Source: a virus. Taken from it: 20,646 bases of DNA. Shown here piece by piece: positions 3,617 to 20,646 of the stretch. The number at the start of each line of letters is the position of its first letter. Position 1 is the first letter of the stretch. The stretch lies in IMG/VR virus record IMGVR_UViG_3300010334_000350, positions 1 through 20,646 of that record; one strand, written 5' to 3'. The translations under genes were made by a program, and so were the position numbers. The notes beneath the pieces were generated by a model. The model was not told the origin of the DNA, ran no database searches, and saw only the letters and a program-made list of their open reading frames with translations.

Positions 3617-3634
3617 ATAATTTGTGCTTTAAAA

Positions 3635-3642
3635 ATAAATAT
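3635..3642. promoter_or_regulatory. Intergenic ATAAATAT motif, copy 1
   Basis: The plus strand reads ATAAATAT (ATATTTAT on the gene strand), 18 nt upstream of the ATG at 3616. The same 8-mer is found in all three gaps of 20 nt or more in the leftward block. It may be a promoter element for the gp55-type sigma factor, or an mRNA processing or spacing element. The role is unproven. Confidence 0.3.
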
Positions 3643-3644
3643 TG

Positions 3645-6600
3645 TTAAATTAGGTTTTGTTGCTTTAATGCTTTTACGACGTTACCAGAATTTTCCCTGA
3701 CAACTGGATCTATATATTGAGGGAATATTAGACCATCGTTAACTATATTGGAAGATCCTGAAAAAGCTAGAATCAAGTTAGTTTCATCAGGAGATCTTTT
3801 GAGTACTATATAATTAGATATGTAGCCAGGAACTCCTGAATTAGTGTCTCCAGTATTTAGTGTTCGATCTAAAGTAAACTTATAAAATGGAATATTTCCG
3901 GGTGTAGCTCCAGTTATATCTGTATAATAATCTGGTCCTGATACTTCAACTACTCTATATTCAGATTCGTTATATGAACCCCAAGAAGAATTATTATTTT
4001 TAAGTCTTATGAGATCCATTTGATTTAGACTGAATACTTTTACTGGGGTATCTATACCTGGTGTAGTTGAACTTTCGATAAATCCATTATAGAACAGAGA
4101 TTGGGTTGCAGATATTCTAATTGTATTAACATCTATGGCGTACCATTTACTGTCTAGATCCGTAATAGAAGTCGTGTATACATCAGAAGTTGTTGAACCT
4201 CCAATTGGATTATATGTTTGTTCGCTGTTTATTGCTACACTATAACTATGACCTGGTTGCCAAGTATTAAGAGTTCCTGCGGATCCTGAATATGAACTAT
4301 TTATGTATTGATTAAATCTATAAGGAGGAGAAGTAGAAGATGGTACGCCTACCTGAGCTGTATAAGAATAATTTATGTTACTAGATCCTAAAGTATTATT
4401 GTATATAGTAAAATTAACGTATGTCAATAATGTACTAGGAGTCGTTCCTACCGCGCTAAAAGTAACTGGCATATATATAGCGCTTTGTACTGGGGATCTT
4501 AGTGTCCCTAGAGTCGGGGTAGACCAATAATTTGGATCTCCTGGTGTAATTGATGTATAAGTTGGAATCGTTACGGTCGTAGTAGATTGACTAGGTTGAG
4601 TTAAAGCATATATTTTATTATTATTAACTCCATCTGTGCTATACAATACAGGACTATATTTAAAACCTCCTTCGTATAAATTAGAACTAGTATTATTAGT
4701 CAATACTTGAGCAGTATTATCGGCTGAACTATAGTCAAATAATGATATATTTACAGTTTCTCCTGACTTAAATATGTTTTGTGTATAAAAGATATTATTA
4801 TTTTGTTTAGTTAAATCTAATACATTTTGATTATTATCAAAAATATATTTTATCTGTGCATTAACTCTTCCTGGTAATTGGAAAGAAGAAGAGTATGTAT
4901 CCACTAAATAACTATACTGATATTTTATTTTATCTATTGCTGCAGTTTTACCATAAGAAGAGTCTCCATCGGTGTATGTGGTATAGGTCGCGCTCGTAGT
5001 TTTTGATCCATAGTATCTAGGAATCGTGTAACTCTGCATAGCATAATTAGAGTCTTGAAGTTGCGCTAACTGACTATACGGATCTAAATAGTTGGTATAG
5101 CTATTAGCAGTTCTATTAGAAAGTGATTGAGTGATTAATCCATAATTACTTGGTTTAACTTGACTACTATCGTAATCCAAATCCAAATAATTTCTTGATT
5201 TTACCGAAGCACTAACGTTTTGAAATAGGGCTCCCAAAGATTGCGTAACGAAACTGCCAGCAGAACCGCTAAAATTCTTTGAAATATCGTACTGCTTTTG
5301 GAAACTGTTTAAAGTAGTTGCGGTAATTACGGATCCTCCAAATTCTCCAGTGAATTTTTCAACTCCTTGAGAACTAGTAAATGGAACGTAACCAACAGAT
5401 CCAGTCTTGTAACCTGACCAAGAAGTAGATCCTGATATGATATTTCCTCCCGAACCCGTGATTCCTAATATATCTATTGACTGACTGTAATTATTATAGA
5501 CCGCAACAGAAGGTTCGTATCTTGGCTGTTTGTTTCTTTCCAACATGTGCGACTTAATAATAATACCAGTCGACACGTCAGCTCTTGCCGGCACAAAATC
5601 TTTAATAGCCTTAAATAAACCGTTATTGTAAAATTTGATCAGTCTAATGTACTCCCAAACGCTGTGTTTCTTAGTGTAGTTGTTTTGAAAATAAGAGTCT
5701 CTAAGCGTATTCAAAGCAACGTAAGAAGAAGATGCTGCATAACCAGGATTTCCTATGTATTGATCTATTCCTCCTGCAAGTACTCCTGAGGCAGATATAT
5801 AATTGTTTATAGTATTAGAAGGACTAAAACCAACTTCTATGTTTATTGAATTTAGTTTGGTGTTAGGATCGTAATATTGTAAAGTAGTAAAAGGAGAAAG
5901 TAAAGAAGAGGATATGGTTGTGGATCCTGTAACAGAAGCACTTCCAGTATCTATTGTTATTTTATAATTAGTAGAGTCCAAATCGTAAACTCCAGGAATA
6001 GTGTTATCTACATTACCTCCAAATTCATCAACAGATAAAATAGTGTCAGGAATACCATAACAAGCAATTAAAGCTTTAATGCCTCTTTGAGTACCTCTAG
6101 TCTTTAGTAAATAAGGTAAGTTGTGATAAAGTCTTTTATAAATTTCGTCTTGTACTTGTTGACCTGGTAAAGTAGCAATACTAGAAGTTACGTAATTTGT
6201 AATCATTTCCGATCCAGTAGGAGGCAATAAACTTCCATCGGCATTGATACCAAATAAACTATAATAAACGTTATCGGAAATACTCGTGTTAGTGTATAAT
6301 TGCATTCCCAAACCTCTTAGTGCATCGGAAACCAAATCTAATGAAATTCCAGTATTGGGATTATTTGTAGCATCGAACTTATTAGAAACGTCTTTATAGT
6401 ACAACCAAATATTATCAAAGTGTTGACCTATCATATCCAAGAAGGTCAAATATGGTTGGTTACTAGAGTCGTCTAAAATGTATTGAGGCGAGGAATATCT
6501 TAAAGCGTCCTTATTTGAATAATCGTAAATTGACGCAGAGTATAATAGGGACGCGGTAGTAGCGGTAGTAACAGTATCTGCAGTTCCCAAAAAGTTAGAA

Positions 6601-7754
6601 ACTTGAGAAGATGTAACAGAGTATAGCGTGTAAGGTTGAGTAGTATTTGATTTTGGCCAAGAGTAAGATGAGGACTGAAAATACAAGAAAGTTTCGTAAG
6701 GATCTAATTTACTTACTATATTGTTTATTGAGGTTTGAGCGGCTAAAGAAGACGATGAAGCAATTATAGGTGAGACTGCCGAATATTTTTTTGCATTTGC
6801 TATGTCTTGATTATAACTTTCTATTAATTGAACTTTGTATTTAAAATTTAAAACTCTTTCAGAAGCATTTGAAAAGTGTATAAAATTAGAAAAATCGCTA
6901 TAATCAACGTTGATAGCTATCGACTTATCTTGATAGTAGTTCAACATTTTTTGATAGGACGAAGTTACATTACTTGTTAATAAAGTATTGTAAGAGTAGT
7001 AAGGCGTAGTTTGACCAACCTTAACAGATGTGGCAACAGAATAATTTGGACCTCTTAATTTGAACCTTTCGTTAGGATCCTCGGCAGGCACTTGAATATT
7101 AACGTTGTAGTTTATAGGTTCTGAAACCTTATCTACTATCCACAATTGCGTTTTAACGTCTATATCAGCGTCTAAAGGTTCGTAGAGCTTAACTATTAAA
7201 TAAGCTCCTTCATCGTCTTGATTAAACGCAACGTTAACTCCAATTGCTAAAGTATTAGTTCCAAAGTTTAAATAAAAATCGCTGTAATAATTCTTGGTAG
7301 ATATATAATTTTGGTATACATTGAATCCTTCCAAAATTCCTGAATCACTGATAACTTGAGAAGCCAGTTTGATCTCTGTTCTTGATTGAGATATTTCTTT
7401 GATCCAATATGTCTTACCGTATTGAGAATTGAATAGCTTCTTTAAAAAGTTATATTGTATGTTTACCGAGCCTCTATTGAATCCTCTATTTATAACGTCT
7501 GTTTGAGGATCTAAAGTTAGTGTGCTATATAAACTAGTAGAAGGATTGGTCGTAAGATAGGGATAATAATCGAATCCATCGTAATCAGAAAGAAGTATGT
7601 TTCCGTTTTGATCGTATATAAACAGTTCTATATAATCTTCTTTAGCTCCAAAATTAGAATTTATATAATTATTGGTGATTAACGAAGTATCAACAGAAGA
7701 GTATTGTTGACTTGGTATGTCCGATCCTTTTATTTGTACTTGTATTAATTCCAT
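3645..7754 (-). CDS. Giant tail/baseplate structural protein (1369 aa)
   Basis: 1369 aa, the largest complete gene here, dominated by Ser, Tyr, Asn and Thr, with no membrane segment. The N-terminal ~240 residues (LDPQTDVINRGFNRGSVNIQ, WIKEISQSRTEIKLASQ) and a middle section around residues 540-580 (LPYLLKTRGTQRGIKALIAC, YGIPDTILSVDEFGG) resemble large structural proteins downstream of gp6 in marine T4-like phages, as I remember them. Residues ~700-740 (FKAIKDFVPARADVSTGIII) are a further conserved-looking patch. The C-terminal half appears beta-rich and repetitive in composition. Its start overlaps the previous stop as TAATG. By position it may replace the T4 gp7/gp8/gp10 group of peripheral baseplate proteins. 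That equivalence is a guess. Confidence 0.8.
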   Translation of the reverse strand: MELIQVQIKGSDIPSQQYSSVDTSLITNNYINSNFGAKEDYIELFIYDQNGNILLSDYDGFDYYPYLTTNPSTSLYSTLTLDPQTDVINRGFNRGSVNIQYNFLKKLFNSQYGKTYWIKEISQSRTEIKLASQVISDSGILEGFNVYQNYISTKNYYSDFYLNFGTNTLAIGVNVAFNQDDEGAYLIVKLYEPLDADIDVKTQLWIVDKVSEPINYNVNIQVPAEDPNERFKLRGPNYSVATSVKVGQTTPYYSYNTLLTSNVTSSYQKMLNYYQDKSIAINVDYSDFSNFIHFSNASERVLNFKYKVQLIESYNQDIANAKKYSAVSPIIASSSSLAAQTSINNIVSKLDPYETFLYFQSSSYSWPKSNTTQPYTLYSVTSSQVSNFLGTADTVTTATTASLLYSASIYDYSNKDALRYSSPQYILDDSSNQPYLTFLDMIGQHFDNIWLYYKDVSNKFDATNNPNTGISLDLVSDALRGLGMQLYTNTSISDNVYYSLFGINADGSLLPPTGSEMITNYVTSSIATLPGQQVQDEIYKRLYHNLPYLLKTRGTQRGIKALIACYGIPDTILSVDEFGGNVDNTIPGVYDLDSTNYKITIDTGSASVTGSTTISSSLLSPFTTLQYYDPNTKLNSINIEVGFSPSNTINNYISASGVLAGGIDQYIGNPGYAASSSYVALNTLRDSYFQNNYTKKHSVWEYIRLIKFYNNGLFKAIKDFVPARADVSTGIIIKSHMLERNKQPRYEPSVAVYNNYSQSIDILGITGSGGNIISGSTSWSGYKTGSVGYVPFTSSQGVEKFTGEFGGSVITATTLNSFQKQYDISKNFSGSAGSFVTQSLGALFQNVSASVKSRNYLDLDYDSSQVKPSNYGLITQSLSNRTANSYTNYLDPYSQLAQLQDSNYAMQSYTIPRYYGSKTTSATYTTYTDGDSSYGKTAAIDKIKYQYSYLVDTYSSSFQLPGRVNAQIKYIFDNNQNVLDLTKQNNNIFYTQNIFKSGETVNISLFDYSSADNTAQVLTNNTSSNLYEGGFKYSPVLYSTDGVNNNKIYALTQPSQSTTTVTIPTYTSITPGDPNYWSTPTLGTLRSPVQSAIYMPVTFSAVGTTPSTLLTYVNFTIYNNTLGSSNINYSYTAQVGVPSSTSPPYRFNQYINSSYSGSAGTLNTWQPGHSYSVAINSEQTYNPIGGSTTSDVYTTSITDLDSKWYAIDVNTIRISATQSLFYNGFIESSTTPGIDTPVKVFSLNQMDLIRLKNNNSSWGSYNESEYRVVEVSGPDYYTDITGATPGNIPFYKFTLDRTLNTGDTNSGVPGYISNYIVLKRSPDETNLILAFSGSSNIVNDGLIFPQYIDPVVRENSGNVVKALKQQNLI

Positions 7755-8089
7755 TAAACTAAACTAGTTATTGATGTAAATGATTGATTTATGTCCAATA
7801 GTTGTTGACGAAGAGAGTTAATTTCTTCAATAAGAGCCAATTTCTCTGCGTCTATAACTGATCCTCCCACGTATTGTTGACTTCTTTCGATTAATTCAGA
7901 ATGAGAATTAGTGCCGGTTACCGGAATGTCAAAAAATAGTCTATCGTATTCTCTAAAAAATTGATCAACATTCATGGTACTAGCGCTTATTTCTTGCGGC
8001 GCAGTTATTAACTCCCTAAACGAAGTGTCTATTACCTTCGAATAGGTGTTAATTCCATAAACTTTTTTAACTAGTTGAACATTTTCCAT
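7754..8089 (-). CDS. Small putative virion protein with C-terminal coiled coil (111 aa)
   Basis: 111 aa. The first ~75 residues are mixed (FREYDRLFFDIPVTGTNSHS). Residues ~80-106 (AEKLALIEEINSLRQQLLDI) have a heptad-like hydrophobic pattern and very probably form a coiled coil. The gene joins both neighbours by TAATG overlaps (8089 and 7754), so it is likely co-translated with the 368-aa and 1369-aa structural proteins. A trimerising adaptor or small baseplate part is a reasonable guess. No family is recognised with certainty. Confidence 0.75.
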   Translation of the reverse strand: MENVQLVKKVYGINTYSKVIDTSFRELITAPQEISASTMNVDQFFREYDRLFFDIPVTGTNSHSELIERSQQYVGGSVIDAEKLALIEEINSLRQQLLDINQSFTSITSLV

Positions 8090-9195
8090 TATCTTATTAT
8101 TTTAAAGATAGAATTATTATCTATTTCTATTGATTCACCGTCAGGTAAAACAGTTTTCAACAATAATTTATAATATCTTTCAGGCTCTAATCCATTCATG
8201 TATACATCGAAATAACTGCTTGTGCCATCACAACTTACCTTTGTATAATTATTATCAAAATCAACGACTATATCGTCTGCTTTAACATCTTGTATTGCCC
8301 AATAAGTCTGTTGAGGTAAAGCTTTATTGGTAATATACACAGAAGCAGTTGAAAAAGTTCTAGCTGGATATTTGTCTCTTGCGTTTACTCTAAATCTATA
8401 TTTTCCTGTGTTATATTTAAAACTTCCCACGTTATTGTCAAAAGAAGTAACGAATTGGTTGTTAGATATAATGTTTAAACTTCCTGTTGTATAAGCGCTA
8501 TCGTCCCATTTCATTTCTAAGGTAGGAGGATATATTGTGTGAGTATCTACAGAGAAGAAGTTTAATGCAATATAACTGCCTGAATTGTTTTCTACTGATG
8601 TGGGATGCTTAACTATAAATCCATTGTTATTAACTGATCCACTGAACCATTTGTCTACCATTGAAGTTACGTTCGCATTTATGTCTTTACTGTCTTTATA
8701 AGAAAAAGACTGACTGGCAAAAGATCCTGTCCAGTTTCCTCCTCCTGGAGTTAGATAATAAGAACTACTTATCCATGCACTTGAAGTTCCAGGCGAATAG
8801 TTAGGACCTTGCCAAGAGGCTCCGTTAATTGTTACTGGATAATCAGAAAATTTACCCGTGCCCATTCCCCAAGAGGAAGAAAGCGCTCTAATCTCTAAGC
8901 TGTAAGTAGTGCTTAAGTTTTCAGCGTTAGCCAAATATAATTTTAAACCTGCTTGCCAAGAACCAGTTGCAAAAGATTTTATGGTTTGAATATCTGTATC
9001 GGTAAAAGAGATTAAAGATCTTCTTAAATCGTCGTTTAATATTTGTGTATCTGGTTGGGGTTCATATAAGTTTACTGCTATATTAATTCCATTTTTTACA
9101 GACACTTCTAATATTTCGTCCAATCCAGTGTTCTGAGTTGGAAATCTAGAATATAGAGTTGTATCCGCCGTAGGAAATATTTTGTATACTGCCAT
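8089..9195 (-). CDS. Virion structural protein with DNRLRE-like N-terminal domain (368 aa)
   Basis: 368 aa. Residues ~1-130 follow the DNRLRE-type pattern: TADTTLYSRFPTQNTG, then a strand with SLISFTDTDI, then LKLYLANAE, and then EIRALSSSWGMGTG. Proteins of that family are beta-sandwiches found in secreted and surface adhesins. The last ~120 residues (FRVNARDKYPARTFSTASVY, LEPERYYKLLLKTVLPDG) look fibronectin/Ig-like. It sits directly after gp6, where T4 has gp7/gp8. A similar beginning is known to me from marine T4-like phage structural proteins. Likely role: a peripheral baseplate part or carbohydrate-binding-type tail protein. The fold call comes from pattern reading and is moderately sure. 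Confidence 0.78.
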   Translation of the reverse strand: MAVYKIFPTADTTLYSRFPTQNTGLDEILEVSVKNGINIAVNLYEPQPDTQILNDDLRRSLISFTDTDIQTIKSFATGSWQAGLKLYLANAENLSTTYSLEIRALSSSWGMGTGKFSDYPVTINGASWQGPNYSPGTSSAWISSSYYLTPGGGNWTGSFASQSFSYKDSKDINANVTSMVDKWFSGSVNNNGFIVKHPTSVENNSGSYIALNFFSVDTHTIYPPTLEMKWDDSAYTTGSLNIISNNQFVTSFDNNVGSFKYNTGKYRFRVNARDKYPARTFSTASVYITNKALPQQTYWAIQDVKADDIVVDFDNNYTKVSCDGTSSYFDVYMNGLEPERYYKLLLKTVLPDGESIEIDNNSIFKIIR

Positions 9196-9206
9196 TGTTA
9201 TTTAAT

Positions 9207-11048
9207 TTAGAATGTTACCACGCGACCTTGAATGTCTGAATTTAAGTATTTTAATTCGAATATTGATGGATCTAAAGATGGATACACTACATTGTTTAGC
9301 GTTGCTGCTTGAATATCGTAAGAGTATTTTGAGTATCCATTTGCCTCTCCATATTTGTTTACTATTTCTACTTTCTTAACTGTTTGAACTCCGTCTATTT
9401 GATCCAAAACTCCATAAACTTCGGTTAAAATAATAGGTTGATTGATCTGCCAATTTTGAATATTGAAATAGTCTTGTAAAGTCATCAAACATCTTGCTAC
9501 CACATCTTGACTATTGTAGTTAGGTCTAATTACTACGTCAAAATTACAACCTATATTTATAATGAAAGCCGGTTTTAATTTAATAGAATCGGTCATCATT
9601 CTATATTCAAACATGTAATCTTGAATATTTTTTAATAGCGATGGAGTAGGTACACTTAGATATCCTGAAACATCAAGACTTAATACGTACAAACTTATAG
9701 CCAAAGGATCTCTTAATCCAGAATTATTTTCTATATAGTTTTTAAATACCGCATCGTCTTTTGTAACGTAAGCTTTTGAAATTTTACCAAATTGAGCGGG
9801 CATACACAACGTTCTTGCTAAATAATCCTCTTGAGTCACAGCTCTTAATTGACTTGGAAACTGTAATTGAGTATTGAATCTTAACTCTTGAACAGAATCA
9901 CCATCTCCACCACCAGCAGCCGGTTGTTCGTTATTAGTAACTAACGTGTAAACAAATGTATTATTTCCAGAAATTGTTTTTGCTATTGGTTTTGTTAATT
10001 CTCCCTGTAAAACATTGCTATTCGCTCCTCCTCCAACAAGATACGTGAAAGTGATAGTAGTGCTTTTTGGAGCCAATCCGTAAGTTTGAGTTGTAACAAA
10101 ATTTGTAGGATCGAAAGAGCTTGATAATAAACTCAATCCTCCATTAGTGTTGCCTACGCTTACTTGATTAGGATCCGGAATAACTGCACTATCAGCAACA
10201 GAATTAATTCCAGGTCCAAACTCTATTTGTAATACCGCATTACTTTGAAATCTTGAAGTAAATCTTCTTGGAACTTGTAATTTTTGAATCATGTAAGGAA
10301 CTTGATTCACATCGTTTATTGTGGTGTTTGCTACAGGTTTTAGAATATAGTCTTGAGCTAAATAGGGAACTTCGTACCAAGTATTACCTGATGAATCCAC
10401 TGCATCAAGAATAGTAATGATATTGGAATCTTGTAAATTAATAGTAGCGAATCTTTGTGCATTTCCAAAACTAAATTGCTGCGTCTTTATTTGTCCAGAT
10501 ATCGCTTGTGTTTTTTTTGATAGTAAAAAACTTGTAGGATTATTAAAACCATCAAGAGTATAAGCGGTAACATCTGTTGGATCCAAAGAAGATGAAACTC
10601 TAAAATCTATTTTTTGAGGACAGTAGAATGTATTAGAACTATTTATATTAGAAGCAACTTGCATTCCTTGATCTACGGAAAAAGCATACGAAAAATCAGG
10701 AAGATATTTGCCTGCCGATAATACAGAAGGCACTTGTTGATAAACTTTAAGATCAACTATAGCTGCGCTGGTTACTTTTGGTCTGTAACCTAACATATAA
10801 GCCAGACTATATAAATTATTTTTTTGTTTTGCGTATTGTAAAAAAGTCTCTTGTAATTGATTGTCCAAATAGAAAGATAAAACATCTCCAACATAAGAAG
10901 CCATTTCAATAAACATGCTACCTGGACTTGCTTGATTAAAATCTTTGTAATTGTCAGGATAATAGGATTTAGCATATTCTATCAAATCAGATTTGAAAGA
11001 ACTAAAATTCTTATTTAAGTATTTAATATCTACGTTATTGTTCTGCAT
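9207..11048 (-). CDS. 6: Baseplate wedge protein, T4 gp6-like (613 aa)
   Basis: 613 aa against about 660 in T4 gp6. The N-terminus (SFKSDLIEYAKSYYPDNYKD, then PGSMFIEMASYVGDVLSFYL at ~42-61) is the characteristic gp6/baseplate-J-type beginning. The C-terminal third has the expected order with LQDYFNIQNWQINQPIILTE and VYGVLDQIDGVQTVKKVEIV. Gp6 dimers form the ring around the inner baseplate that opens when the sheath contracts. The gene follows gp25 with a 2-nt gap, the same pairing as in T4 and cyanophages, which strongly supports the call. No Shine-Dalgarno sequence precedes ATG at 11048. An alternative reading as a generic baseplate J-like protein would give the same role. Confidence 0.92.
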   Translation of the reverse strand: MQNNNVDIKYLNKNFSSFKSDLIEYAKSYYPDNYKDFNQASPGSMFIEMASYVGDVLSFYLDNQLQETFLQYAKQKNNLYSLAYMLGYRPKVTSAAIVDLKVYQQVPSVLSAGKYLPDFSYAFSVDQGMQVASNINSSNTFYCPQKIDFRVSSSLDPTDVTAYTLDGFNNPTSFLLSKKTQAISGQIKTQQFSFGNAQRFATINLQDSNIITILDAVDSSGNTWYEVPYLAQDYILKPVANTTINDVNQVPYMIQKLQVPRRFTSRFQSNAVLQIEFGPGINSVADSAVIPDPNQVSVGNTNGGLSLLSSSFDPTNFVTTQTYGLAPKSTTITFTYLVGGGANSNVLQGELTKPIAKTISGNNTFVYTLVTNNEQPAAGGGDGDSVQELRFNTQLQFPSQLRAVTQEDYLARTLCMPAQFGKISKAYVTKDDAVFKNYIENNSGLRDPLAISLYVLSLDVSGYLSVPTPSLLKNIQDYMFEYRMMTDSIKLKPAFIINIGCNFDVVIRPNYNSQDVVARCLMTLQDYFNIQNWQINQPIILTEVYGVLDQIDGVQTVKKVEIVNKYGEANGYSKYSYDIQAATLNNVVYPSLDPSIFELKYLNSDIQGRVVTF

Positions 11049-11050
11049 AA

Positions 11051-11464
11051 TTACATATTTTGTATTTCGAGTACCACACCATCTGTTTCTTTAGAATTTT
11101 TTAATGTATAACTAAATTTTATTTTTATTGAACTAGTGTTGGGATCTCCATTAACTGTCAAATTAGATATCGCAACGTTTGGAAAAGTGTTTTCTATTTG
11201 AGCTATTAAGGATTGTTTGATATCGTCTAAAGAGGATTGAGCTATTTGTTCGAATAGTCTCGATCTTAAACCGGCCCCAAAAGTTGGATTGAAAGGGCGC
11301 TCTCTTCTATCAGTTAATAAGAAGTTGATTAAGTTGTACTTGGTTTGCTCTTTGGTCGTGTACACAGATTGAAACGCTATAGGAGCGGAAAAAGGTATTT
11401 TTACTCCTATTGCTTGAGATGGTCTCAAATCGTCTTGTGATATTTGTCTTAAGTTATATGCCAT
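11051..11464 (-). CDS. 25: Baseplate wedge protein, T4 gp25-like (137 aa)
   Basis: 137 aa, close to the 132 aa of T4 gp25. The family signature is visible at about residues 52-71: DRRERPFNPTFGAGLRSRLF, with the Glu-Arg-Pro-x-Asn-Pro and Gly-x-Gly/Leu-Arg features of the GPW/gp25 fold. The following helix (SSLDDIKQSLIAQIENTFPN) and the final strand pair (IKIKFSYTLKN) also fit. Gp25 joins the wedge core with gp6 and gp53 and contacts the sheath. It overlaps the 157-aa gene upstream as TAATG and precedes gp6 by 2 nt, matching the conserved gp25-gp6 order. Although once called lysozyme-like, members of this family act structurally. Confidence 0.93.
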   Translation of the reverse strand: MAYNLRQISQDDLRPSQAIGVKIPFSAPIAFQSVYTTKEQTKYNLINFLLTDRRERPFNPTFGAGLRSRLFEQIAQSSLDDIKQSLIAQIENTFPNVAISNLTVNGDPNTSSIKIKFSYTLKNSKETDGVVLEIQNM

Positions 11465-11937
11465 TAAATAGCGCCTTTAGCTTTTAGTTTACTCATTAAT
11501 TGTGTAAAGTCAGGTACTTCATTTATTTGTACCATACTTGGATCCGAACTTGCTCTTGCTGTTGACAACATACTGTTTACGTCTCCCACTGCCACTTGTT
11601 TAGGTTGGAAGAAGCTGGTTGGATCGACTCCAATTGAATCAGGACCTATATTTCCAGTAGTAAAAGACATGTCGTCCATTTCTACCATTGACATTGCGGT
11701 CTCGTTTAGTATGCTTGCCAAAGGATTGCCTGAGAAGTTAGCTGCGGGTCTCATTGGTTGCGTGTTTAGAGTTAATGGGACAGCTTTTTTTACAGGTTTA
11801 GATTCTTTTATAACCTCTTTTGTAGTGCTGGAGGTTCGAACCTCTTGTAAAATGGCAGGCATCTCTTGACGAATGGCCTTTGCAACCTCTTCCCTTATTA
11901 ATTTTCTAAGTAAATCTATTTGACTTGTTTTTGCCAT
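11464..11937 (-). CDS. Hypothetical protein with N-terminal amphipathic helix, probable baseplate part (157 aa)
   Basis: 157 aa. Residues ~4-36 (SQIDLLRKLIREEVAKAIRQ, continuing EMPAILQEVR) form a strongly amphipathic, coiled-coil-like helix. The middle (~37-115) is Ser/Pro/Gly-rich and probably unstructured. A short helical end carries FTQLMSKLKAKGAI. It has no membrane segment. The gene lies between the 653-aa protein and gp25, shares a TAATG overlap with gp25, and is preceded by a 37-nt gap containing the ATAAATAT motif. A small scaffold, linker or baseplate assembly role is inferred from position only; no family is recognised. Confidence 0.75.
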   Translation of the reverse strand: MAKTSQIDLLRKLIREEVAKAIRQEMPAILQEVRTSSTTKEVIKESKPVKKAVPLTLNTQPMRPAANFSGNPLASILNETAMSMVEMDDMSFTTGNIGPDSIGVDPTSFFQPKQVAVGDVNSMLSTARASSDPSMVQINEVPDFTQLMSKLKAKGAI

Positions 11938-11941
11938 ATCT

Positions 11942-11950
11942 TATAAATAT
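11942..11950. promoter_or_regulatory. Intergenic ATAAATAT motif, copy 2 (contains TATAAATA)
   Basis: The plus strand reads TATAAATAT, so 11942-11949 is an exact T4 late-promoter box (TATAAATA) but pointing rightward, opposite to the genes. On the gene strand it reads ATATTTATA, 5 nt before the ATG at 11937. Its orientation makes a simple late-promoter reading doubtful. Confidence 0.3.
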
Positions 11951-11974
11951 TGGTTTATGATACTTTCTTTTTAA

Positions 11975-13936
11975 TTAGCGTACTATACCAGAACTATATT
12001 TTCCTCCTGGGTCGGTACTCTTTAAATCTGTTTTTAAATTTTGCACTGAAGCAGCCATTAACTTTCTCATTCTTTTCCTTAACTTTTTACCTCCTGGAAG
12101 GTTATTTGCAAAGGCATTAAGACCCAATCCATTCTCTTCGTTTTCGTTATCAGGAGCGTCCAATCCATTAATAATAGAGGTAACGTCTAGGTCGTCTATA
12201 GTTATATCAGGATCCCCTAGATTTGCAGTCGACTCTATTAAGATAACTAGATCGGAAGGATTCATTCCCGTAACAGACTTATTAGTGTAACCTCCTGCGC
12301 TTAATAACAATTTCACTTCGTTTATTATAATTGTATCGTCAGAAGCATAAGTAGGAGTTGATTGTACCACTTTATTTTTCTTTCCGTCCAAAGCAATACC
12401 AAATCTTCTTTTTATGGACAAAGCAATATCTGTAGTTTCTTCGGTAATAATCTCTATAGTGAAATCTCCATAAGTTTTATTCTTGTTATTTACAGAGTCA
12501 AAATAATCGTCCATATACTTTTGAAGTGCATCTGCGCCCTCTTTAAGTTCTTGTATAGTCTGATTTAATTCGGCTTTTAGGTCTTCATCGCAACTATCGC
12601 AACTATTTAAGTTTCTCGCAATTAATTCTAACTTAGGAATGATGAAAACTACATTATTTAATACGTAAGAAACAACACTTCTAATTAATCCAAGAATTTC
12701 GTTTATTTGCGCTAATCTTTTTAAGAAGTATACTAGACCATTATTAAGTATAGCGTCTTCGTAAGTAGCAGAAATGGCAGTTTGGCCACTGACTGTATTG
12801 AATACTTGAGGTATAGGCATACCAGAAAAGAAGAAGGCTCTTAATTTATAGAATATTTTTATTAGCAACAAACCTACTCTGATCACCAATTGTAACAAAG
12901 AAATGTACTTGACTATGTTGGCCATAATCTTGACAATCGATTTTGCAGTTTTTATTATTGATTTAATAAATGGTACTGCTTTTTTAGGATCTAGTATTTT
13001 GTCCAATTGCTTTATAGCTTCGTTAATTTTTCCCTTTGTTAAGGTATTTAATTGCTGTAAAACTGTTTTTGGATCGTTGTACGCTTGAATTACAATACAC
13101 ACAGATCTCACTTTATTCATAGTGTCTATCGTAGTGGTAAAGTCAACATCAGTAAAAGTTCTTAGATCTATTTTTTTATTTAAAGAGCCTATAGCGTTAG
13201 TTATAAAATTACTTGATATTGCGGCTTGAGGAAAAGCTTGAGAAAATTCAGCGTCTACCAAAGAAGCCGAAGAATTTACATCGTTTAGATCTTCCAATAT
13301 AGAAGTAACTTGAGCAATAAGATCTTTTAAAGCTTTTTGAGTTTCAGGATTATTGGATATAAAACTAGAAACAGTAGTGGCCCCTGAATAAAGAGCCATA
13401 AATTTATCTATATAGCCTTGTACGTCGTAAGCAAGCTTTTGTATTTGATATTTTTTCTTTTCCAAAGATCCTGCGCTACGAGGAGGAGCTTTTTTAGGAT
13501 CAAATTTTTGTAAGTTATCAGGTATTTGGTTTGCTGCAAAACTAAAAATAGCACAAAAGTCTATTCCTGCAATTAGATTAAGAATTCTAACCAATCCCAT
13601 ATCTAACGGATTTAAAAAAATTGCACCTGGGGGTTTTGGTTTTCCGTAAAACACTCTAGAAACGCCTTTCTTTATCTTTATTATAGCTTTGGAAACTATA
13701 CCGACTACTCTCTCTAAACCAGTTGCAAGATCCGCATCAGGAATTAGTTGATTTGCCTTATTTATTAAATCTAATTGAGCGCCTAAATCTCCTGCATTCT
13801 GAGCATCGGTCAATTTAGTATTTATCTCTCCAGTTTTTGCTCTTAGATTCGCCTGCTTATTTCTGGTTTCAGTTCTAAAATCGGCTCTTTCCTGCTGCCT
13901 TCTTTGTCTAGCATCGTAGTTTGGAGTATTTGCCAT
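11975..13936 (-). CDS. Large helical protein with hydrophobic core segments, virion-associated (653 aa)
   Basis: 653 aa, not assignable to a T4 protein by eye. Residues 1-60 are highly charged and coiled-coil-like (RQRRQQERADFRTETRNKQ). Residues ~78-130 and ~325-372 are rich in Ile, Val, Leu and Lys (IVKYISLLQLVIRVGLLLIK at 341-360), which could be membrane-inserting or buried helices. A CDSC pair lies at 446-449. The C-terminal ~150 residues are acidic, then basic (PGGKKLRKRMRKLM). It is placed between spike and wedge genes and abuts the spike gene with no gap. A tape-measure-like or central hub role is possible because such proteins are helical with hydrophobic stretches. This is weakly supported; a generic structural protein is the safe call. 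Confidence 0.75.
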   Translation of the reverse strand: MANTPNYDARQRRQQERADFRTETRNKQANLRAKTGEINTKLTDAQNAGDLGAQLDLINKANQLIPDADLATGLERVVGIVSKAIIKIKKGVSRVFYGKPKPPGAIFLNPLDMGLVRILNLIAGIDFCAIFSFAANQIPDNLQKFDPKKAPPRSAGSLEKKKYQIQKLAYDVQGYIDKFMALYSGATTVSSFISNNPETQKALKDLIAQVTSILEDLNDVNSSASLVDAEFSQAFPQAAISSNFITNAIGSLNKKIDLRTFTDVDFTTTIDTMNKVRSVCIVIQAYNDPKTVLQQLNTLTKGKINEAIKQLDKILDPKKAVPFIKSIIKTAKSIVKIMANIVKYISLLQLVIRVGLLLIKIFYKLRAFFFSGMPIPQVFNTVSGQTAISATYEDAILNNGLVYFLKRLAQINEILGLIRSVVSYVLNNVVFIIPKLELIARNLNSCDSCDEDLKAELNQTIQELKEGADALQKYMDDYFDSVNNKNKTYGDFTIEIITEETTDIALSIKRRFGIALDGKKNKVVQSTPTYASDDTIIINEVKLLLSAGGYTNKSVTGMNPSDLVILIESTANLGDPDITIDDLDVTSIINGLDAPDNENEENGLGLNAFANNLPGGKKLRKRMRKLMAASVQNLKTDLKSTDPGGKYSSGIVR

Positions 13937-14371
13937 CTATCGTGTAAATGTGTTTTTAGAAAGTAATGTTCGCAAAGAGTCTTCTAATTGAACAGCAGCA
14001 GCTTCAAGTTGTAAACCTTGATTTTTTATTACAGTTATTGATGCAGCAATATTTTGTTTATTCTCTCCTACACGACCTAATTGAACTCCTATTTCTTTTA
14101 AAGCCCCAGTGAATAATTCTAATTGAAACACTAGACTATTTCCAAGAACTACGCTTTCACCAAGAGCCTGAGCCTCATGACCAAGTTCAACTATGTCAGA
14201 ATCCAAGATAATTTTTTCTTTTGCATCCAAATTAATTGTTTCAGTAGAACACAAAGATACTGCTCTTTTTCCGGCAATAATTACTGCGTCTTTTTTAGAG
14301 TGCAATAAAATTCTATCAGAAGATAAAATCACCTGTGCGCCTGTAAATGGAAATTCTAATTTATCTAACAT
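13937..14371 (-). CDS. Central spike needle-like protein, gp5 C-terminal type (144 aa)
   Basis: 144 aa. Residues ~10-64 consist of short alternating strands (QVILSSDRILLHSKKDAVII, INLDAKEKIILDSDIVELG) of the kind that build the triple-stranded beta-prism of phage and T6SS spikes. Next comes LGESVVLGNSL (~70-80), matching the 'GE/P-VVLG' turn that closes spike/gpV-type domains in many myophages. The last ~60 residues are helical. It follows the gp5-like gene by one base (TAACATG), so both are probably made together. I infer that it forms the tip or needle of the central spike on the OB-fold protein encoded upstream. No catalytic motif is present. Confidence 0.72.
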   Translation of the reverse strand: MLDKLEFPFTGAQVILSSDRILLHSKKDAVIIAGKRAVSLCSTETINLDAKEKIILDSDIVELGHEAQALGESVVLGNSLVFQLELFTGALKEIGVQLGRVGENKQNIAASITVIKNQGLQLEAAAVQLEDSLRTLLSKNTFTR

Positions 14372-14372
14372 G

Positions 14373-15302
14373 TTATCCTATTGCTTTTTTATCTTGTGTA
14401 TTCGCATCTACTTCTTCGTTAGAAATTATTGGAGAGCTCGACATTCTTATGTTATCAGTTCTCTCTTGTGCTTGAGCATTGATTCCTCCAAAAGATCTGA
14501 AGTCAAAATTATTCAAATCTTCTATTACTATTTGTTGGTCTTTAGTCAAATATATAGAAGAAAAATCCTTGTTTATGTTTTCTAAAGTAGGAGCAAAAAT
14601 ATCTTTACTATTTTCAGGAGCGCCTTGACCGTTTACAATCATTGTTATTGGACTGCCTTGAGGTCCCTTATTGGACCAATAATTTGATCTTTTTATTTTA
14701 GGAGTTGTGCTTCCAAATCTAACCGATTGACCAAATCTAGACTCTAATATAATATCTCCTTCGAAAGGTTTTAGCTTTCTAACCGTATTGGTCTCTTTAA
14801 AATATTCTCCCAAAAATAGCTCTACAGTAGTATCGCCTTTACCGGAAATATTAGGATGAGAAGAGTAGTAGTCCAACAAAAACTGTTGGTATTCTAACAT
14901 ATTTGGAAACGCACTATGATTTGGATTGAATTTCCAAAGATTGTAAGGAGGTAAATAAAACAATTGCTTTGATTGAAAGTCGTCGTTTAGCGCTTCACTA
15001 GGGCCTGGAAATATTATTACAATTTCGTTAATCAGTGGGTATTGATTAATGAAACTAAAGAATGGATAAGCATAGTCGCTTACGCGTTTGCTTTTACTAG
15101 TGGTTAAACTAGTATACAAAATCTCAAAACTTATTTTACCCAAGTCTCCAAAGCTTTTAAAATCTGGGTCGGTTTCTTTTGTGCCTTCTACTAGATCTGA
15201 CAGCACAATACTACTGACTCTTCCTATAATGTAGAAAAAGCCGGATTTAGTGACTGCAGATCCTTCAGGTCTTCCAGTTTTATAGTTATTTTTTCTTGCC
15301 AT
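14373..15302 (-). CDS. 5: Baseplate hub/spike protein, T4 gp5 N-terminal (OB-fold) type without lysozyme (309 aa)
   Basis: 309 aa. Residues ~20-115 (GFFYIIGRVSSIVLSDLVEG, INEIVIIFPGPS) fit a beta-rich OB-like entry domain. Residues ~178-199 (KPFEGDIILESRFGQSVRFG) are the segment I know from gp5-like hub proteins of marine T4-like phages. Residues ~246-262 (DFSSIYLTKDQQIVIEDLNN) match the usual end of that domain. T4 gp5 (575 aa) also carries a lysozyme domain and a C-terminal beta-helix. Here no lysozyme-like Glu/Asp/Thr segment is seen, and the beta-needle lies in the next gene. The start overlaps the previous stop as TAATG. The gp5-like role is well supported; the exact fold is inferred. 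Confidence 0.78.
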   Translation of the reverse strand: MARKNNYKTGRPEGSAVTKSGFFYIIGRVSSIVLSDLVEGTKETDPDFKSFGDLGKISFEILYTSLTTSKSKRVSDYAYPFFSFINQYPLINEIVIIFPGPSEALNDDFQSKQLFYLPPYNLWKFNPNHSAFPNMLEYQQFLLDYYSSHPNISGKGDTTVELFLGEYFKETNTVRKLKPFEGDIILESRFGQSVRFGSTTPKIKRSNYWSNKGPQGSPITMIVNGQGAPENSKDIFAPTLENINKDFSSIYLTKDQQIVIEDLNNFDFRSFGGINAQAQERTDNIRMSSSPIISNEEVDANTQDKKAIG

Positions 15303-15658
15303 TACGCTTTAGGTAATTGTTTAGTGCCTTGTCCTATTGAAGTTACCTCGCTCATTAATTGCTCTATGTCTTTCTCGCTTAAAAGTCCTCCGTCTTCTAC
15401 AGACTTGTCCTTGGCATCCGCAGATTTTTGAAAAGCACTAAGTATTTTCATTAGCACTTCATCGTTTTTAAGGCTAGAATCCAATAGGCCTTTAATCATG
15501 GGCACAAGAACGATAGCGTCGCCAGGACCTTCTATCATGTCAGCAAGACGTAATATCTCTGATTTTATTGATGAATCTTGTGACTTGTGTTTGTTATAGA
15601 CCTCTTCCACCAAATTCGCCAATGTCTTGCCAGGGAAGATTTCTTTTTCTAGTTCCAT
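15302..15658 (-). CDS. Conserved-type hypothetical protein, helical, acidic (118 aa)
   Basis: 118 aa, mostly helical, with no membrane segment or known motif. It begins EKEIFPGKTLANLVEEVYNK and has AIVLVPMIKGLLDSSLKNDE in the middle, with an acidic C-terminal half (LLSEKDIEQLMSEVTS). I recall similarly organised short proteins near gp55 and baseplate genes in marine T4-like phages, without a function. It shares TAATG with the gp5-like gene, so it is probably co-translated with it. The 20-nt gap upstream holds an ATAAATAT motif. A packaging, assembly or hub-chaperone role would all fit; none can be chosen. Confidence 0.72.
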   Translation of the reverse strand: MELEKEIFPGKTLANLVEEVYNKHKSQDSSIKSEILRLADMIEGPGDAIVLVPMIKGLLDSSLKNDEVLMKILSAFQKSADAKDKSVEDGGLLSEKDIEQLMSEVTSIGQGTKQLPKA

Positions 15659-15671
15659 ACGATTTTTTTAA

Positions 15672-15679
15672 ATAAATAT
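15672..15679. promoter_or_regulatory. Intergenic ATAAATAT motif, copy 3
   Basis: The plus strand reads ATAAATAT between the gp55-like gene (it touches its TGA stop) and the 118-aa gene, 13 nt before the ATG at 15658. It is identical to the cores of copies 1 and 2. See the finding on this shared motif for significance and tests. Confidence 0.3.
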
Positions 15680-16437
15680 CACTGGTCTACATTTTCAATA
15701 TGGTGATCCAAGACCTCCTTGTAAACAACTTTAAGCTTCTTTATGACCTTGGTTATTGTATTTGATTGGCAATCGGTCATCTCTTTTATGTATATGAATA
15801 GAGCTTTTTTATTGAAAATGTCTATGTTTTCCCTTCTTTTGAACACTTCTAATATAGCATCGGCCACTTTTACCTCTTGATCCTTATCGAATAGTCTCAT
15901 TAGATTTTCGTCCACATATTTTATAAACTCATCTATGACCGATACTCTATTAATATCGGTGGAATCCGGTTCTAGCACTAAAGTTTCATGAGTTTTATCG
16001 GAATTGTCTATCTCTTCAATTTGCATTTTGGAGACCATCTTTTTGTAATTCTTTTGATTGTAGATGATCAAATACCTTTTAGCAATGGTACCAAAATAGG
16101 AATAGGCTTTGCCCTTTGATTGATCGTAAAGGTGTAATTTTTGCAAAAGAAAAGAGATAACTTCGAACTTAAGATCTTCAATGTTATCTACTTCTGTGTA
16201 GTAAAACTTAAAAGTATGAATGATATTCTCAGCTAACTTATAGAAAGCATAGTGAATTTCCTTATTATAGATTTGATTTGCTACCGCTTGATTAGGAGCC
16301 GAACGATACCTTAGAATGGCCTCTTCAGTTTCAGAAGTAAAGTAAACGTTCTTAGTTTTTGGTTTTCTTTTTCTAGGTGTACCTTTTATGGTAAGACCTA
16401 TATCCACTTCTTGTTCAGCCATTAGTTCTTCTGCCAT
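15679..16437 (-). CDS. 55: Late-transcription sigma factor, T4 gp55-like (252 aa)
   Basis: 252 aa against 185 in T4 gp55. After a basic N-terminal tail (PRKRKPKTKNVYF) comes a sigma region 2-like helical core at ~36-135, with IEDLKFEVISFLLQKLHLYD (86-105) and KAYSYFGTIAKRYLI (110-124), the most conserved gp55 features. The C-terminal part (~200-248: NIDIFNKKALFIYIKEMTD then a helix) resembles the second conserved block of gp55-like proteins in marine T4-like phages. Gp55 directs the host RNA polymerase to late promoters (TATAAATA in T4), usually with gp33 and the sliding clamp. It stands just before the spike/baseplate genes and so could help switch on its own block. No clamp-binding tail is obvious. 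Confidence 0.85.
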   Translation of the reverse strand: MAEELMAEQEVDIGLTIKGTPRKRKPKTKNVYFTSETEEAILRYRSAPNQAVANQIYNKEIHYAFYKLAENIIHTFKFYYTEVDNIEDLKFEVISFLLQKLHLYDQSKGKAYSYFGTIAKRYLIIYNQKNYKKMVSKMQIEEIDNSDKTHETLVLEPDSTDINRVSVIDEFIKYVDENLMRLFDKDQEVKVADAILEVFKRRENIDIFNKKALFIYIKEMTDCQSNTITKVIKKLKVVYKEVLDHHIENVDQ

Positions 16438-16440
16438 AGT

Positions 16441-16713
16441 TTATTTTCTCCCCGTAAATTGTTGAACGCGTAATTGAATTGCTTTAATTGTTTCGAATAG
16501 AGCCAATAATTCTGGGTCTGATTGAACCCACATTGTCATGTCTATTTTGTTTACCAATCCGTTAAAATCGTCCATTAAAGAAAGCGTTTCATTAACGAAA
16601 CTGCTTTGATTAATTACAATCTCTTCTAAACGTTTATTTTTTCTATAAAGATTGTATACTACGGCGCCAATAATAGTGACAAACCATAATACTAGTGCAA
16701 TTGTTCCTGTCAT
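16441..16713 (-). CDS. Small membrane protein with coiled coil (90 aa)
   Basis: 90 aa. Residues ~4-21 (TIALVLWFVTIIGAVVYNLY) are one clear membrane segment, followed at once by RKNKRLEEIV, a positive-inside boundary and the start of a helix that runs to the end. The layout predicts an inner-membrane anchor with a cytoplasmic coiled-coil tail. It ends 3 nt before the gp55-like gene and starts 5 nt after the HD-domain gene. I recall similar short TM-plus-coil proteins next to gp55 in marine T4-like phages. Function is unknown; a spanin is unlikely because there is no signal peptidase or lipobox motif. Confidence 0.75.
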   Translation of the reverse strand: MTGTIALVLWFVTIIGAVVYNLYRKNKRLEEIVINQSSFVNETLSLMDDFNGLVNKIDMTMWVQSDPELLALFETIKAIQLRVQQFTGRK

Positions 16714-16718
16714 TTTAA

Positions 16719-17351
16719 TTAAATTTGTGTTTCTACTCTTGAAGCCATTAAATCGGCTTGATGTAGTATGTAAGGTAAATTAGATTTTAATTCAGAGTCA
16801 GAGCTATACGTAATGTAGTACGCCTTATTTGATTCTTCGTACAGTCCATCGTGTAATTTGATTGCTAAGAATTCATTTTCGCTAACAGAAATATTCGCTT
16901 GCTGTAAGTAGAATAGACTACGATCTGCAATTCTCATGTGAGTAATATTGGTGTTGTATTTAAAATGAGCTCCTTGCTTTTCTACGTGCCAAGAAGAGTC
17001 ATTGGGAATATAGAAAGGCTGTTCATTAGTGCCCAACTTACCAAGATCATGATTAATTGCAGAGAATACTAGTTCTTCAACTGTATAATCTTTCTTCTGA
17101 CCAAAGCGCTCCCATACTTTATCCATAACTAAAGAGGCTTCAACTACTCTGTTAACATGTTCAACGTACCCACCTGGAAAACAGTTATGATGCGATAGTT
17201 TAGTGGAAGCTGGACTGATGGCTAAAGTAACTTCTCTAGCTTTGTAAAATTCCAGTAACGCATCTTTTCTGTCAGAGGCGATGTACTTGTCTATGTAACC
17301 GTAAAACTTCTGTAAGTTCTCAAGGATCTGTTCTTCTGTTAATTTTTTCAT
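16719..17351 (-). CDS. HD-domain phosphohydrolase (210 aa)
   Basis: 210 aa, a metal-dependent HD-superfamily hydrolase. Visible metal ligands are His54/His55 plus His65 in SHHNCFPGGYVEHVNRVVEA, His101-Asp102 in INHDLGKLG, and Asp200 in LHQADLMASR. The GG-x-x-EH arrangement is like the COG3481/YhaM-type HD domains rather than the dNTPase SAMHD type, but substrate cannot be read from sequence. The domain fills the whole protein with no nucleic-acid-binding module. Likely activity is phosphate ester hydrolysis of a nucleotide, cyclic nucleotide or RNA end in the host cytoplasm. It sits among small accessory genes upstream of gp55, with 5-16 nt gaps. The HD assignment is firm; any role in nucleotide salvage or host defence evasion is speculation. 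Confidence 0.82.
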   Translation of the reverse strand: MKKLTEEQILENLQKFYGYIDKYIASDRKDALLEFYKAREVTLAISPASTKLSHHNCFPGGYVEHVNRVVEASLVMDKVWERFGQKKDYTVEELVFSAINHDLGKLGTNEQPFYIPNDSSWHVEKQGAHFKYNTNITHMRIADRSLFYLQQANISVSENEFLAIKLHDGLYEESNKAYYITYSSDSELKSNLPYILHQADLMASRVETQI

Positions 17352-18166: not shown

Positions 18167-19093
18167 ATGGAGAACGAACAATTAGTTTTGGGGCTTTTGG
18201 AATCTGTGTTGGGAAAATCAAAACCCGACAAAAATAAGAAGGACCACGCATTCCATTGCCCTATTTGCAATCACAAGAAACCAAAGTTGATAGTAAACAT
18301 TTCAACCGGGCAATACAACTGTTGGACCTGTCACCCCGCGACAAAAGGCAAAACGCCGGTGTCTTTATTTAAGAAGCTTGGTGTAGATAAACCTCGAATG
18401 GTGGAGATGAAAGGCTACTTTTCCAACGATAGAACCAAGATAGAAGACGTAGAAACTGAAAGAGTATTTTTGCCTAAAGAATTCATTTCAATGACCGATA
18501 ACGATAAATCTTTGGAGTATCGTCACGCAGCCGTATACTTAAAAAGTAGAGGAATAAACGAATACGATATAAGAAAATACAACATTGGGTACTGTAAAAC
18601 TGGAAGGTATAGAAATAGAGTTGTGATTCCTTCTTACGATAAAAATGGTCAAGTTAATTACTTTATTGCGCGCTCATTCGAAAAGGATCCGTATCAAAAG
18701 TACGACGCTCCTTCAATCCAAAAGACAGAAATAGTCGGCATGGAGTACTTTGTAAACTGGTCAGTACCAATAATACTTTGCGAGGGAATATTCGACGCAA
18801 TTGCAATAAAAAGAAATGCAGTTCCTCTATTTGGCAAATCAATTCCAAAGGCACTGATGTTGAAACTTGTGGAATCTCAAGTAAAAACAGTATATTTGGC
18901 CTTGGATAAAGATGCGCTTAAAGAAGCATTGACTTATTCAGAACAGTTGATAAATCTAGGTAAGGAAGTTTATTTAATACAATTAGAAGGAAAGGATCCT
19001 TCTGATTTAGGTTTCGAAAATATGACAAAATTATTACAACAAGCAAAGCCGTTAACATTCGGTGAGATCATTCTCAAAAAAATGATGGGTTAA
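18167..19093 (+). CDS. 61: DNA primase, DnaG/T4 gp61-like (308 aa)
   Basis: 308 aa, near the ~340 aa of T4 gp61. It has an N-terminal CHC2-type zinc ribbon: Cys31-x2-Cys34 in HCPICNHKKPKL and Cys52-x2-Cys55-His56 in YNCWTCH. The Toprim domain has Glu206 in ILCEGIFDAIAIK, the Asp247-x-Asp249 pair in ALDKDALKEA, and DPSD (277-280). Such primases make short RNA primers for lagging-strand synthesis together with the gp41-type helicase, which is not in this window. I start at ATG 18167 rather than the in-frame TTG at 18152, because the latter lies against a likely -7 promoter box. The stop is 3 nt before the next gene, suggesting joint expression with the recombination nuclease. Confidence 0.9.
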   Translation: MENEQLVLGLLESVLGKSKPDKNKKDHAFHCPICNHKKPKLIVNISTGQYNCWTCHPATKGKTPVSLFKKLGVDKPRMVEMKGYFSNDRTKIEDVETERVFLPKEFISMTDNDKSLEYRHAAVYLKSRGINEYDIRKYNIGYCKTGRYRNRVVIPSYDKNGQVNYFIARSFEKDPYQKYDAPSIQKTEIVGMEYFVNWSVPIILCEGIFDAIAIKRNAVPLFGKSIPKALMLKLVESQVKTVYLALDKDALKEALTYSEQLINLGKEVYLIQLEGKDPSDLGFENMTKLLQQAKPLTFGEIILKKMMG

Positions 19094-19096
19094 ACC

Positions 19097-20646
19097 ATGA
19101 TAAGAAAAATATTTCAAGTAAGTGATATTCACATTAGAAATTTCAAAAGACACGAAGAGTACAGAAGAGTTTTCGAGAGACTTTACGACTACATTAAAGC
19201 AAATTTTACAGAAGACGATCTAATCTGTTTGACAGGAGATATCGTTCATGCCAAGACAGACGTAACTCCAGAATTAGTAGAAGAGGTACAAAACTTTCTA
19301 AAAACATTGGCAGACATTGGAAGAGTCTTATTGATTCCAGGCAATCACGATGCAAACTTAAATAACGGCCATAGAATGGATGCGTTGACTCCTATCGTTA
19401 ATGCTTTGAACCATCCTAATCTAACCTATCTTAAGAAGACTTGCGCATTAGACATTTACAACAACAACGTTACTTTTTATCACTGGTCGGTTTTTGACAG
19501 TCACACCGAGTATCCAAAATGTTTCGGTACTCAAGACGACTTTAAGATCTGTTTGTATCACGGACCGGTTAGCGGCACAGTTACTGAAAGCGGCTTCGGT
19601 CTTTTCGAAAACGACGTGAAAGTAGACGATTTTGAAGGCTTTGACTTAGTTTTACTAGGCGATATACACAAGACTCAATTCCTAAACGAAGCCAAGACTA
19701 TTGGATATCCAGGATCTTTGGTACAACAGAATCACGCAGAGTCTTTAGTACACGGCATATACGTTTGGGACGTTGCGACTAAGTCTGCAGAGTTCGTAGA
19801 GATAGAAAACGATACTGCTTTCTACACAATAGAAGTGGACGCTGGCATCTATCAACCGTTACCAAAACTACCCAAGAATCTTTACCTAAGAGTCAAATAT
19901 AGAAACACAGATCAGTCGGAAATCAAGAGAATAGTAGCTGAAATCAAGCAAGAATACAACGTATTGGAAACTTCCTTGATGAAAATAAGAAACTTCACCA
20001 ACTCTTCCAACGAAAATAAGAAGCTTAACGTACACAATGTAAGAGACGTTGACTATCAGAACTCAATAATGATAGAATTCTTAAAAGAAAAGTTCGATTT
20101 AGACGAACAATCGATAAAGGACATCTGCGAGATAAACAAAATAGTGAACAACTCTTTACCAAAATCCGAAGTTCCAAGAAACTCAATTTGGATTCCCAAG
20201 ACTTTCGAATTCTCTAACATGTTTAGTTACGGAAAAGGCAACTTTATCGACTTTTCTAACATGGCTGGAACCTACGGCATCTTTGCACCAAACGCTAGCG
20301 GTAAATCTACTTTATTGGATTCTATCGCCTACTGTATATTTGACAGATGCTCTCGTACAACTAAGTCAGCGCAAGTAATGAACAGTAATTCTGACTCATT
20401 TAAGTGCAAATTGGTCTTTGAATTGAATGGAGTGGAGCATACTATAGAAAGAAAGGGATCGAAACAAAAATTGGGTAACGTAAAAGTCAACGTGGACTTC
20501 TATTATACAGATCAAGACGGCAATAAAGTGTCTTTAAACGGTAAAGAAAGAAACGACACTAACAAAAGCATTCAAAATGTTATGGGTAATTACGAGGACT
20601 TTGTTCTTACTGCGTTATCCATGCAAAACAACAATACAGGTTTTAT
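19097..20646 (+). CDS. 47/46: gp47-gp46 (SbcD-SbcC/Mre11-Rad50) fusion protein, partial at right edge
   Basis: One open frame of 516 complete codons from ATG 19097 to the edge. Residues ~1-340 form an Mre11/SbcD-type metallophosphoesterase: SDIH (Asp10, His12), TGDIVH (Asp48), PGNHDAN (Asn83-His84-Asp85), YHGP (His155) and GDIHKT (Asp189-x-His191). From ~365 comes the N-lobe of an SbcC/Rad50 ABC-type ATPase: FSYGKGNFIDF, a Walker A GIFAPNASGKSTLLDSI at 394-410, and later YEDFVLTALSMQNN, the Q-loop-like region. In T4, gp47 and gp46 are separate subunits of the complex that resects DNA ends for recombination-dependent replication. Here no stop or start separates the two. The coiled coil and Walker B/signature parts would lie beyond the window. 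Fused function is inferred; each domain call is firm. Confidence 0.9.
   Translation, partial: MIRKIFQVSDIHIRNFKRHEEYRRVFERLYDYIKANFTEDDLICLTGDIVHAKTDVTPELVEEVQNFLKTLADIGRVLLIPGNHDANLNNGHRMDALTPIVNALNHPNLTYLKKTCALDIYNNNVTFYHWSVFDSHTEYPKCFGTQDDFKICLYHGPVSGTVTESGFGLFENDVKVDDFEGFDLVLLGDIHKTQFLNEAKTIGYPGSLVQQNHAESLVHGIYVWDVATKSAEFVEIENDTAFYTIEVDAGIYQPLPKLPKNLYLRVKYRNTDQSEIKRIVAEIKQEYNVLETSLMKIRNFTNSSNENKKLNVHNVRDVDYQNSIMIEFLKEKFDLDEQSIKDICEINKIVNNSLPKSEVPRNSIWIPKTFEFSNMFSYGKGNFIDFSNMAGTYGIFAPNASGKSTLLDSIAYCIFDRCSRTTKSAQVMNSNSDSFKCKLVFELNGVEHTIERKGSKQKLGNVKVNVDFYYTDQDGNKVSLNGKERNDTNKSIQNVMGNYEDFVLTALSMQNNNTGF

Follow-up and report, generated by a model that had tools for sequence, protein, structure and literature searches.

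A single-chain Mre11-Rad50 (SbcD-SbcC) gene, very probably from a large tailed phage

Mre11 and Rad50 are the nuclease and ATPase halves of a universal DNA-break-processing machine. The last open reading frame of IMG/VR record IMGVR_UViG_3300010334_000350, which was analyzed in its entirety (20,646 bases; hereafter, the window), raises the question of whether a phage encodes both halves as one chain, and how such a chain is related to known fused and split pairs. We conclude with high confidence that this ORF is the 5′ half of a large tailed phage's single-chain Mre11-Rad50 (SbcD-SbcC) gene, two products of which would form an M2R2-like homodimer for end resection and bridging in recombination-dependent replication.

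One open frame for nuclease and ATPase

From its ATG at 19097 the ORF runs for 516 codons, to position 20644, without a stop, and is still open at the contig end (Table 1). Its residues 4-192 match Pfam Metallophos (E 1.6e-11) and residues 373-493 match AAA_23 (E 2.8e-10), both above the curated cut-offs and far beyond chance, while the SbcC family phrog_77 of PHROGs matches residues 262-513 (5.5e-18). All five phosphoesterase motifs of Mre11/SbcD are present, with Asp instead of His as one of the metal ligands. Residues D10, H12, D48, N83, H84, H155 and H191 are invariant in a 29-row alignment, and H12 is at least 90% conserved in a 43-row alignment; the metal-ligand roles of the nuclease residues are presumably those seen in published Mre11 structures. 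The original prediction, that these motifs and a Rad50-type Walker A lie in one uninterrupted frame, thus holds for the motifs and Pfam domains alike.

Table 1. Features of the fused gene and its upstream neighbor in the window
Feature	Position	Strand	Evidence or remark
DnaG-like primase (308 aa), directly upstream of fusion	18167..19093	+	phrog_47, E 3.9e-50
Mre11(SbcD)-Rad50(SbcC) fusion gene	19097..20646	+	5′ 516 codons of 1049; contig end cuts gene
Phosphoesterase motif I, D10xH12	19124..19132	+	D10 invariant in 29-row and 43-row alignments
Motif II, G47DIVH51	19235..19249	+	G47, D48, H51 invariant in alignments
Motif III, G82NHD85	19340..19351	+	Invariant in alignments
Motif IV, His155	19559..19561	+	Invariant in alignments
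Motif V, G188DIH191 (Asp for first His of canonical GHxH)	19658..19669	+	Invariant in 29-row and 43-row alignments
Capping domain, residues 240-296 (beta-beta-alpha-beta)	19814..19984	+	AF2 model, pLDDT about 90
Helix-loop-helix, residues 318-332 and 337-352	20048..20152	+	AF2 helices
Linker, about 11 residues (353-363)	20153..20185	+	AF2 unstructured, low pLDDT
Rad50/SbcC ATPase N-lobe, residues 364-516, truncated by contig end	20186..20644	+	AAA_23 above cut-off; Foldseek to Rad50 1f2u and SbcC 6s6v
Walker A, A397PNASGKS404	20285..20308	+	N399, G402, K403, S404 invariant in alignment

The rest of the gene is supplied by another contig, IMGVR_UViG_3300027747_001536, which equals the window at 7546 of 7548 nucleotides over the shared 7.5 kb and runs on to complete a protein of 1049 aa followed by a stop. 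In the same frame, as the original prediction had anticipated for a rightward extension, it adds the coiled coil, a zinc hook (C722KFC725) between the coils, a signature motif (L957TSGME962, of the SGME type and not LSGGE) and a Walker B/D-loop (AIDEGFGALD), so that, together with Walker A and the Q-loop (Q510), the full Rad50/SbcC motif set is present. The AF2 model of the full-length monomer, with its long coil, was built from 29 sequences (mean pLDDT 77, with a low pTM of 0.42), and that of the window's part from 43 (pLDDT 81, pTM 0.57). Modeling placed a phosphoesterase domain (1-235), the cap, a loop (300-314), the helix-loop-helix (HLH), the unstructured linker and the N-lobe in that order, with coil helices at about 536-715 and 729-899, the CxxC (722-725) between them and the C-lobe thereafter. 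Foldseek against the PDB retrieved Thermotoga maritima Mre11 (3tho, 3qg5), E. coli SbcD/SbcC (6s6v, 7yzo, 7yzp) and Rad50 (1f2u), and a profile search retrieved the solved SbcC 6s6v at 1.5e-31 along with Rad50 and Mre11. The HLH is expected to be the Rad50-coil binding element, by analogy with T. maritima Mre11 (discussed in PMC3175470).

Could the single frame be an assembly artefact, or the result of a lost stop codon, the true genes being two, as in T4? The contig end does cut the ORF, and some relatives (T4, XG4, Riverwalk) do have two genes. However, the same fused frame recurs in many other contigs at 38-97% identity, and complete phage genomes carry annotated fused CDSs of 1066-1326 aa. 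The first scan yielded 69 related loci, and a second one, based on an alignment, found at least 576; the approximately 100 full-length homologues that were read are fused, with neither a stop nor a frameshift at residues ~320-390. Nearly all are 1026-1066 aa in length and contain Walker A, hook, signature and Walker B; one exception is L131, which stops at 828 aa. When the window gene was compared with four relatives at 84-90% protein identity, the junction (residues 340-375) showed dN of 0.01-0.06 versus dS of 0.7-1.4, and values outside the coil were about 0.005-0.12 for dN and about 0.5-2.3 for dS where computable, with the coiled coil looser than other segments (dN 0.13-0.24). Purifying selection acts on every segment of the fusion, and is weakest in the coil. 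Neither an artefact nor a decaying read-through would show such low dN at the junction; with the near-identical contig and the roughly 100 fused homologues, this rules out assembly error or frameshift and leaves the two-gene explanation a negligible probability. The prediction of a genuine SbcD-SbcC fusion, nuclease first and with capping and HLH regions kept, was borne out by the completed gene and its fused homologues, the same fusion being present in many phage contigs, complete genomes and isolates.

It is also very improbable that one translated chain is later cut into an Mre11 and a Rad50 polypeptide: the linker is predicted to be flexible, but it is short, the region around it is conserved, and cleavage after fusion would bring no clear gain.

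Fused and split relatives

Fusion of the two proteins is not in itself new. Yoshida, Claverie and Ogata (2011; PMC3175470) described Mre11/Rad50 fusions in Mimivirus (R555), bacteria, plasmids, eukaryotes and one phage (of Bacillus), and argued that the abundant R555 homologues of aquatic origin are viral, some of them probably from phages and some adjoining phage-like primases. The fusion architecture can no longer count as a discovery, phage and abundant aquatic viral examples having been published in that study, and the window protein is a further member of the 2011 fusion group; what is new here are the full-length sequences, the clade, the primase linkage, the isolates and the GDxH pattern. 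As in R555-type fusions, both domains share one open frame with Mre11 at the N-terminus, and in the AF2 model the cap, the HLH (318-352) and a linker close to the 9-12 residues of that type lie between the halves. The order Mre11-capping-HLH-short linker-Rad50 and both active-site changes of R555 are shared with the mimivirid fusions, while the tailed-phage context, the primase neighbor and the length (about 1040 aa vs 1351 aa for R555) are not. Among predicted viral structures in BFVD, the best matches were mostly giant-virus proteins at 19-25% identity, Tupanvirus first (25% over about 1300 columns), with Harvfovirus, Yasminevirus and Catovirus also represented, and Tenacibaculum phage pT24 ranked after them.

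Three trees, built from the nuclease part, the ATPase lobes and both joined, each set the fused proteins apart from split pairs, with support of 99/98, 99/98 and 100/99, respectively. The split pairs came from T4, XG4, S-CRM01, Enterococcus and Staphylococcus phages, a Moorella phage, a Cetobacterium plasmid and E. coli; the collections searched covered phages, plasmids and E. coli, and the trees are without Mimivirus R555, giant-virus proteins and Bacillus phage 0305phi8-36. The fused clade, which is one of aquatic phages, takes in Microcystis phage Mel-JY01, cultured jumbo phages of Tenacibaculum (pT24 and PTm1), Sphingomonas (PAU, gp288) and Chryseobacterium (MA9V-1), and a 735-kb phage known from metagenomes. 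The Mel-JY01 protein (WWT39521.1, from a complete 190-kb genome) is 40-44% identical over its whole length and also has a primase upstream. The jumbo-phage proteins have the same architecture, but are longer (1301-1326 aa), that of PAU has GHIH, and several records name the nuclease half only. Since the fused proteins form one clade apart from the split pairs, these sequences suggest that the fusion most simply arose once within it. The idea that the fusion defines a phage lineage was right in that it marks a phage clade, but this clade is broad (contigs and genomes of 132-735 kb, several bacterial hosts) and not one narrow lineage.

T4 gp47/gp46 have the same domains, the same order of transcription (47 before 46) and likely the same role. 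In T4, however, these are two genes (339 and 560 aa) separated by 46.1/46.2, an arrangement that the window does not have; the T4 motif is GHFH, its ATPase chain is 560 vs about 689 aa here, and the pair belongs to a separate clade. Describing the protein as fused gp47/gp46 is correct as to domains, but not as to a recent joining of the T4 genes; a recent private fusion of T4-like genes is ruled out by the depth of the clade, with T4 outside. E. coli SbcD/SbcC share the fold and motif set, but are two proteins (400 and 1048 aa), with GHIH and a longer ATPase chain.

Several loci depart from the common pattern. A human gut phage contig (MT837445.1, 2-3472 of locus L169) carries a second Mre11-Rad50 fusion with canonical GHIH and SGGER, which falls outside the clade and is apparently independent. 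At L069 (6001-10098), a nuclease ORF (259 aa) and a capping-plus-Rad50 ORF (789 aa) are about 950 bases apart, with a small coiled-coil ORF between them, and the start of the capping domain looks repeated in both; given its tree position inside the fused clade, this is probably a secondary split. In IMGVR_UViG_3300002093_000030 (L063, 6001-10994), the gene is fractured inside Walker A (GK/S, the slash marking the break), probably by a split intein: its N-part is CVDSSTKIEIEF..., and its C-part ends in VSHN/S and matches NCBIfam intein_Cterm TIGR01443 above the cut-off. A free-standing 437-aa ORF between the parts perhaps encodes an endonuclease, and the layout resembles published “fractured gene” arrangements. 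In a 484-kb phage (LR756508.1; L072, 3950-8175), the fusion is broken just after GDIHK by an ORF whose product has a TnsA-like endonuclease domain (PF08722). An Rfam search for introns in the interrupted relatives, L072 included, gave nothing above threshold.

Plasmid relatives comprised only split or partial matches at 24-27%. Cellular relatives came to three loci on MAG contigs, of which two are complete fusions (45% and 38%) and the third is partial; the full-length fusions L153 and L154, on MAG contigs labeled Nitrosopelagicus and Gammaproteobacteria, each have a primase upstream and are likely binned phage contigs. Fusions in isolates (PP395634, NC_049383, NC_019521, OR050627) are often annotated by one half, as “metallo-phosphoesterase” or “AAA domain containing protein”, the latter being the only annotation of the Mel-JY01 protein.

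An altered metal site

Nearly all fused members have GDxH (GDIH) where canonical Mre11 has GHxH, with Asp replacing a conserved metal-ligand His; the exceptions to GDIH are PAU (GHIH) and L063 (GDLH). The split T4, XG4, Riverwalk, SscM-1, S-CRM01, Cetobacterium and E. coli proteins have GHxH. Both substitutions reported for R555 (PMC3175470), in which His replaces the third Asp of GDxxD and Asp replaces His206, are present in the window protein as GDIVH and GDIH, but only the latter is diagnostic, since the split proteins of Riverwalk and SscM-1 have GDxxH as well.

With Asp in a metal-ligand position, nuclease activity or metal preference could differ. We consider it unlikely, however, that catalysis by the nuclease half is altered or weak and that the protein mainly tethers or bridges DNA. 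The prevalence of GDxH in the fused proteins and its occurrence in Mimivirus R555 (PMC3175470) speak for this option; on the other side, the seven remaining motif residues (from D10 to H191) are invariant or nearly so, Asp (residue 189 here) can coordinate metal, its strict conservation argues for use and not decay, and PAU retains GHxH inside the same clade. A bolder proposal, which we put forward only tentatively and think less probable than its negation, is that phage and mimivirid R555 fusions are one family that moved between tailed phages and giant viruses, the shared His-to-Asp change giving a cleavage mode or metal use unlike that of the studied split Mre11-Rad50 complexes.

Genomic setting and proposed function

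A DnaG-like primase lies no more than 2 kb upstream of the fusion in 52 of the 53 loci tested, mostly within 60 bases; it is 214 bases away in Mel-JY01 and about 1.4-1.5 kb away in L063 and L069, and the 735-kb phage has none. The AAA_23 search detected no second, split Rad50 in most fused-clade phage genomes examined: G001 (174 kb), G007, G008, G009 and the complete Mel-JY01 each have one Rad50-type match, within the fusion, a result limited by the sensitivity of the model, which missed even the fusion itself in G006, where it fell below threshold. In the 735-kb phage, AAA_23 also matches at two places beyond the fusion. Five of the six genomes searched gave a RecA-type match, which was weak in one case. 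In the window, baseplate-region genes occupy 2957-17351 on the minus strand; the baseplate wedge protein (9207-11048) shares 46% identity with its counterpart in Flavobacterium phage immuto, and the genes around it seem to follow a similar order; no fusion is detectable in immuto.

By analogy with the split complexes, two fused chains would form a homodimer, (MR)2, equivalent to the canonical M2R2. This could work because in the known complex the Mre11 C-terminus lies near the Rad50 N-terminus, and a linker of 9-12 residues was argued to be enough to join them (PMC3175470). The Rad50 lobes would close on ATP around DNA, with the tethered Mre11 domains dimerizing below them; ATP hydrolysis would shift the nuclease onto the DNA end, and CxxC hooks would bridge molecules. 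The most likely function would be end resection and bridging as the phage genome undergoes recombination-dependent replication and repair, together with a RecA/UvsX-type recombinase, as for T4 gp46/gp47. The suggestion of a distinct architecture of the resection machine did not hold up: the nuclease-linker-ATPase order fits the canonical M2R2 geometry, and nothing indicates a differently built machine.

These data give full-length support to the 2011 inference that the R555-like genes abundant in aquatic viral DNA come from viruses, phages among them, fix the position of the phage genes downstream of a primase, and point to cultured phages that could serve for studying a one-chain resection machine. 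With its parts held at 1:1, the fused chain could suit studies of the control of Mre11 by Rad50, whether by cryo-EM or by single-molecule methods.
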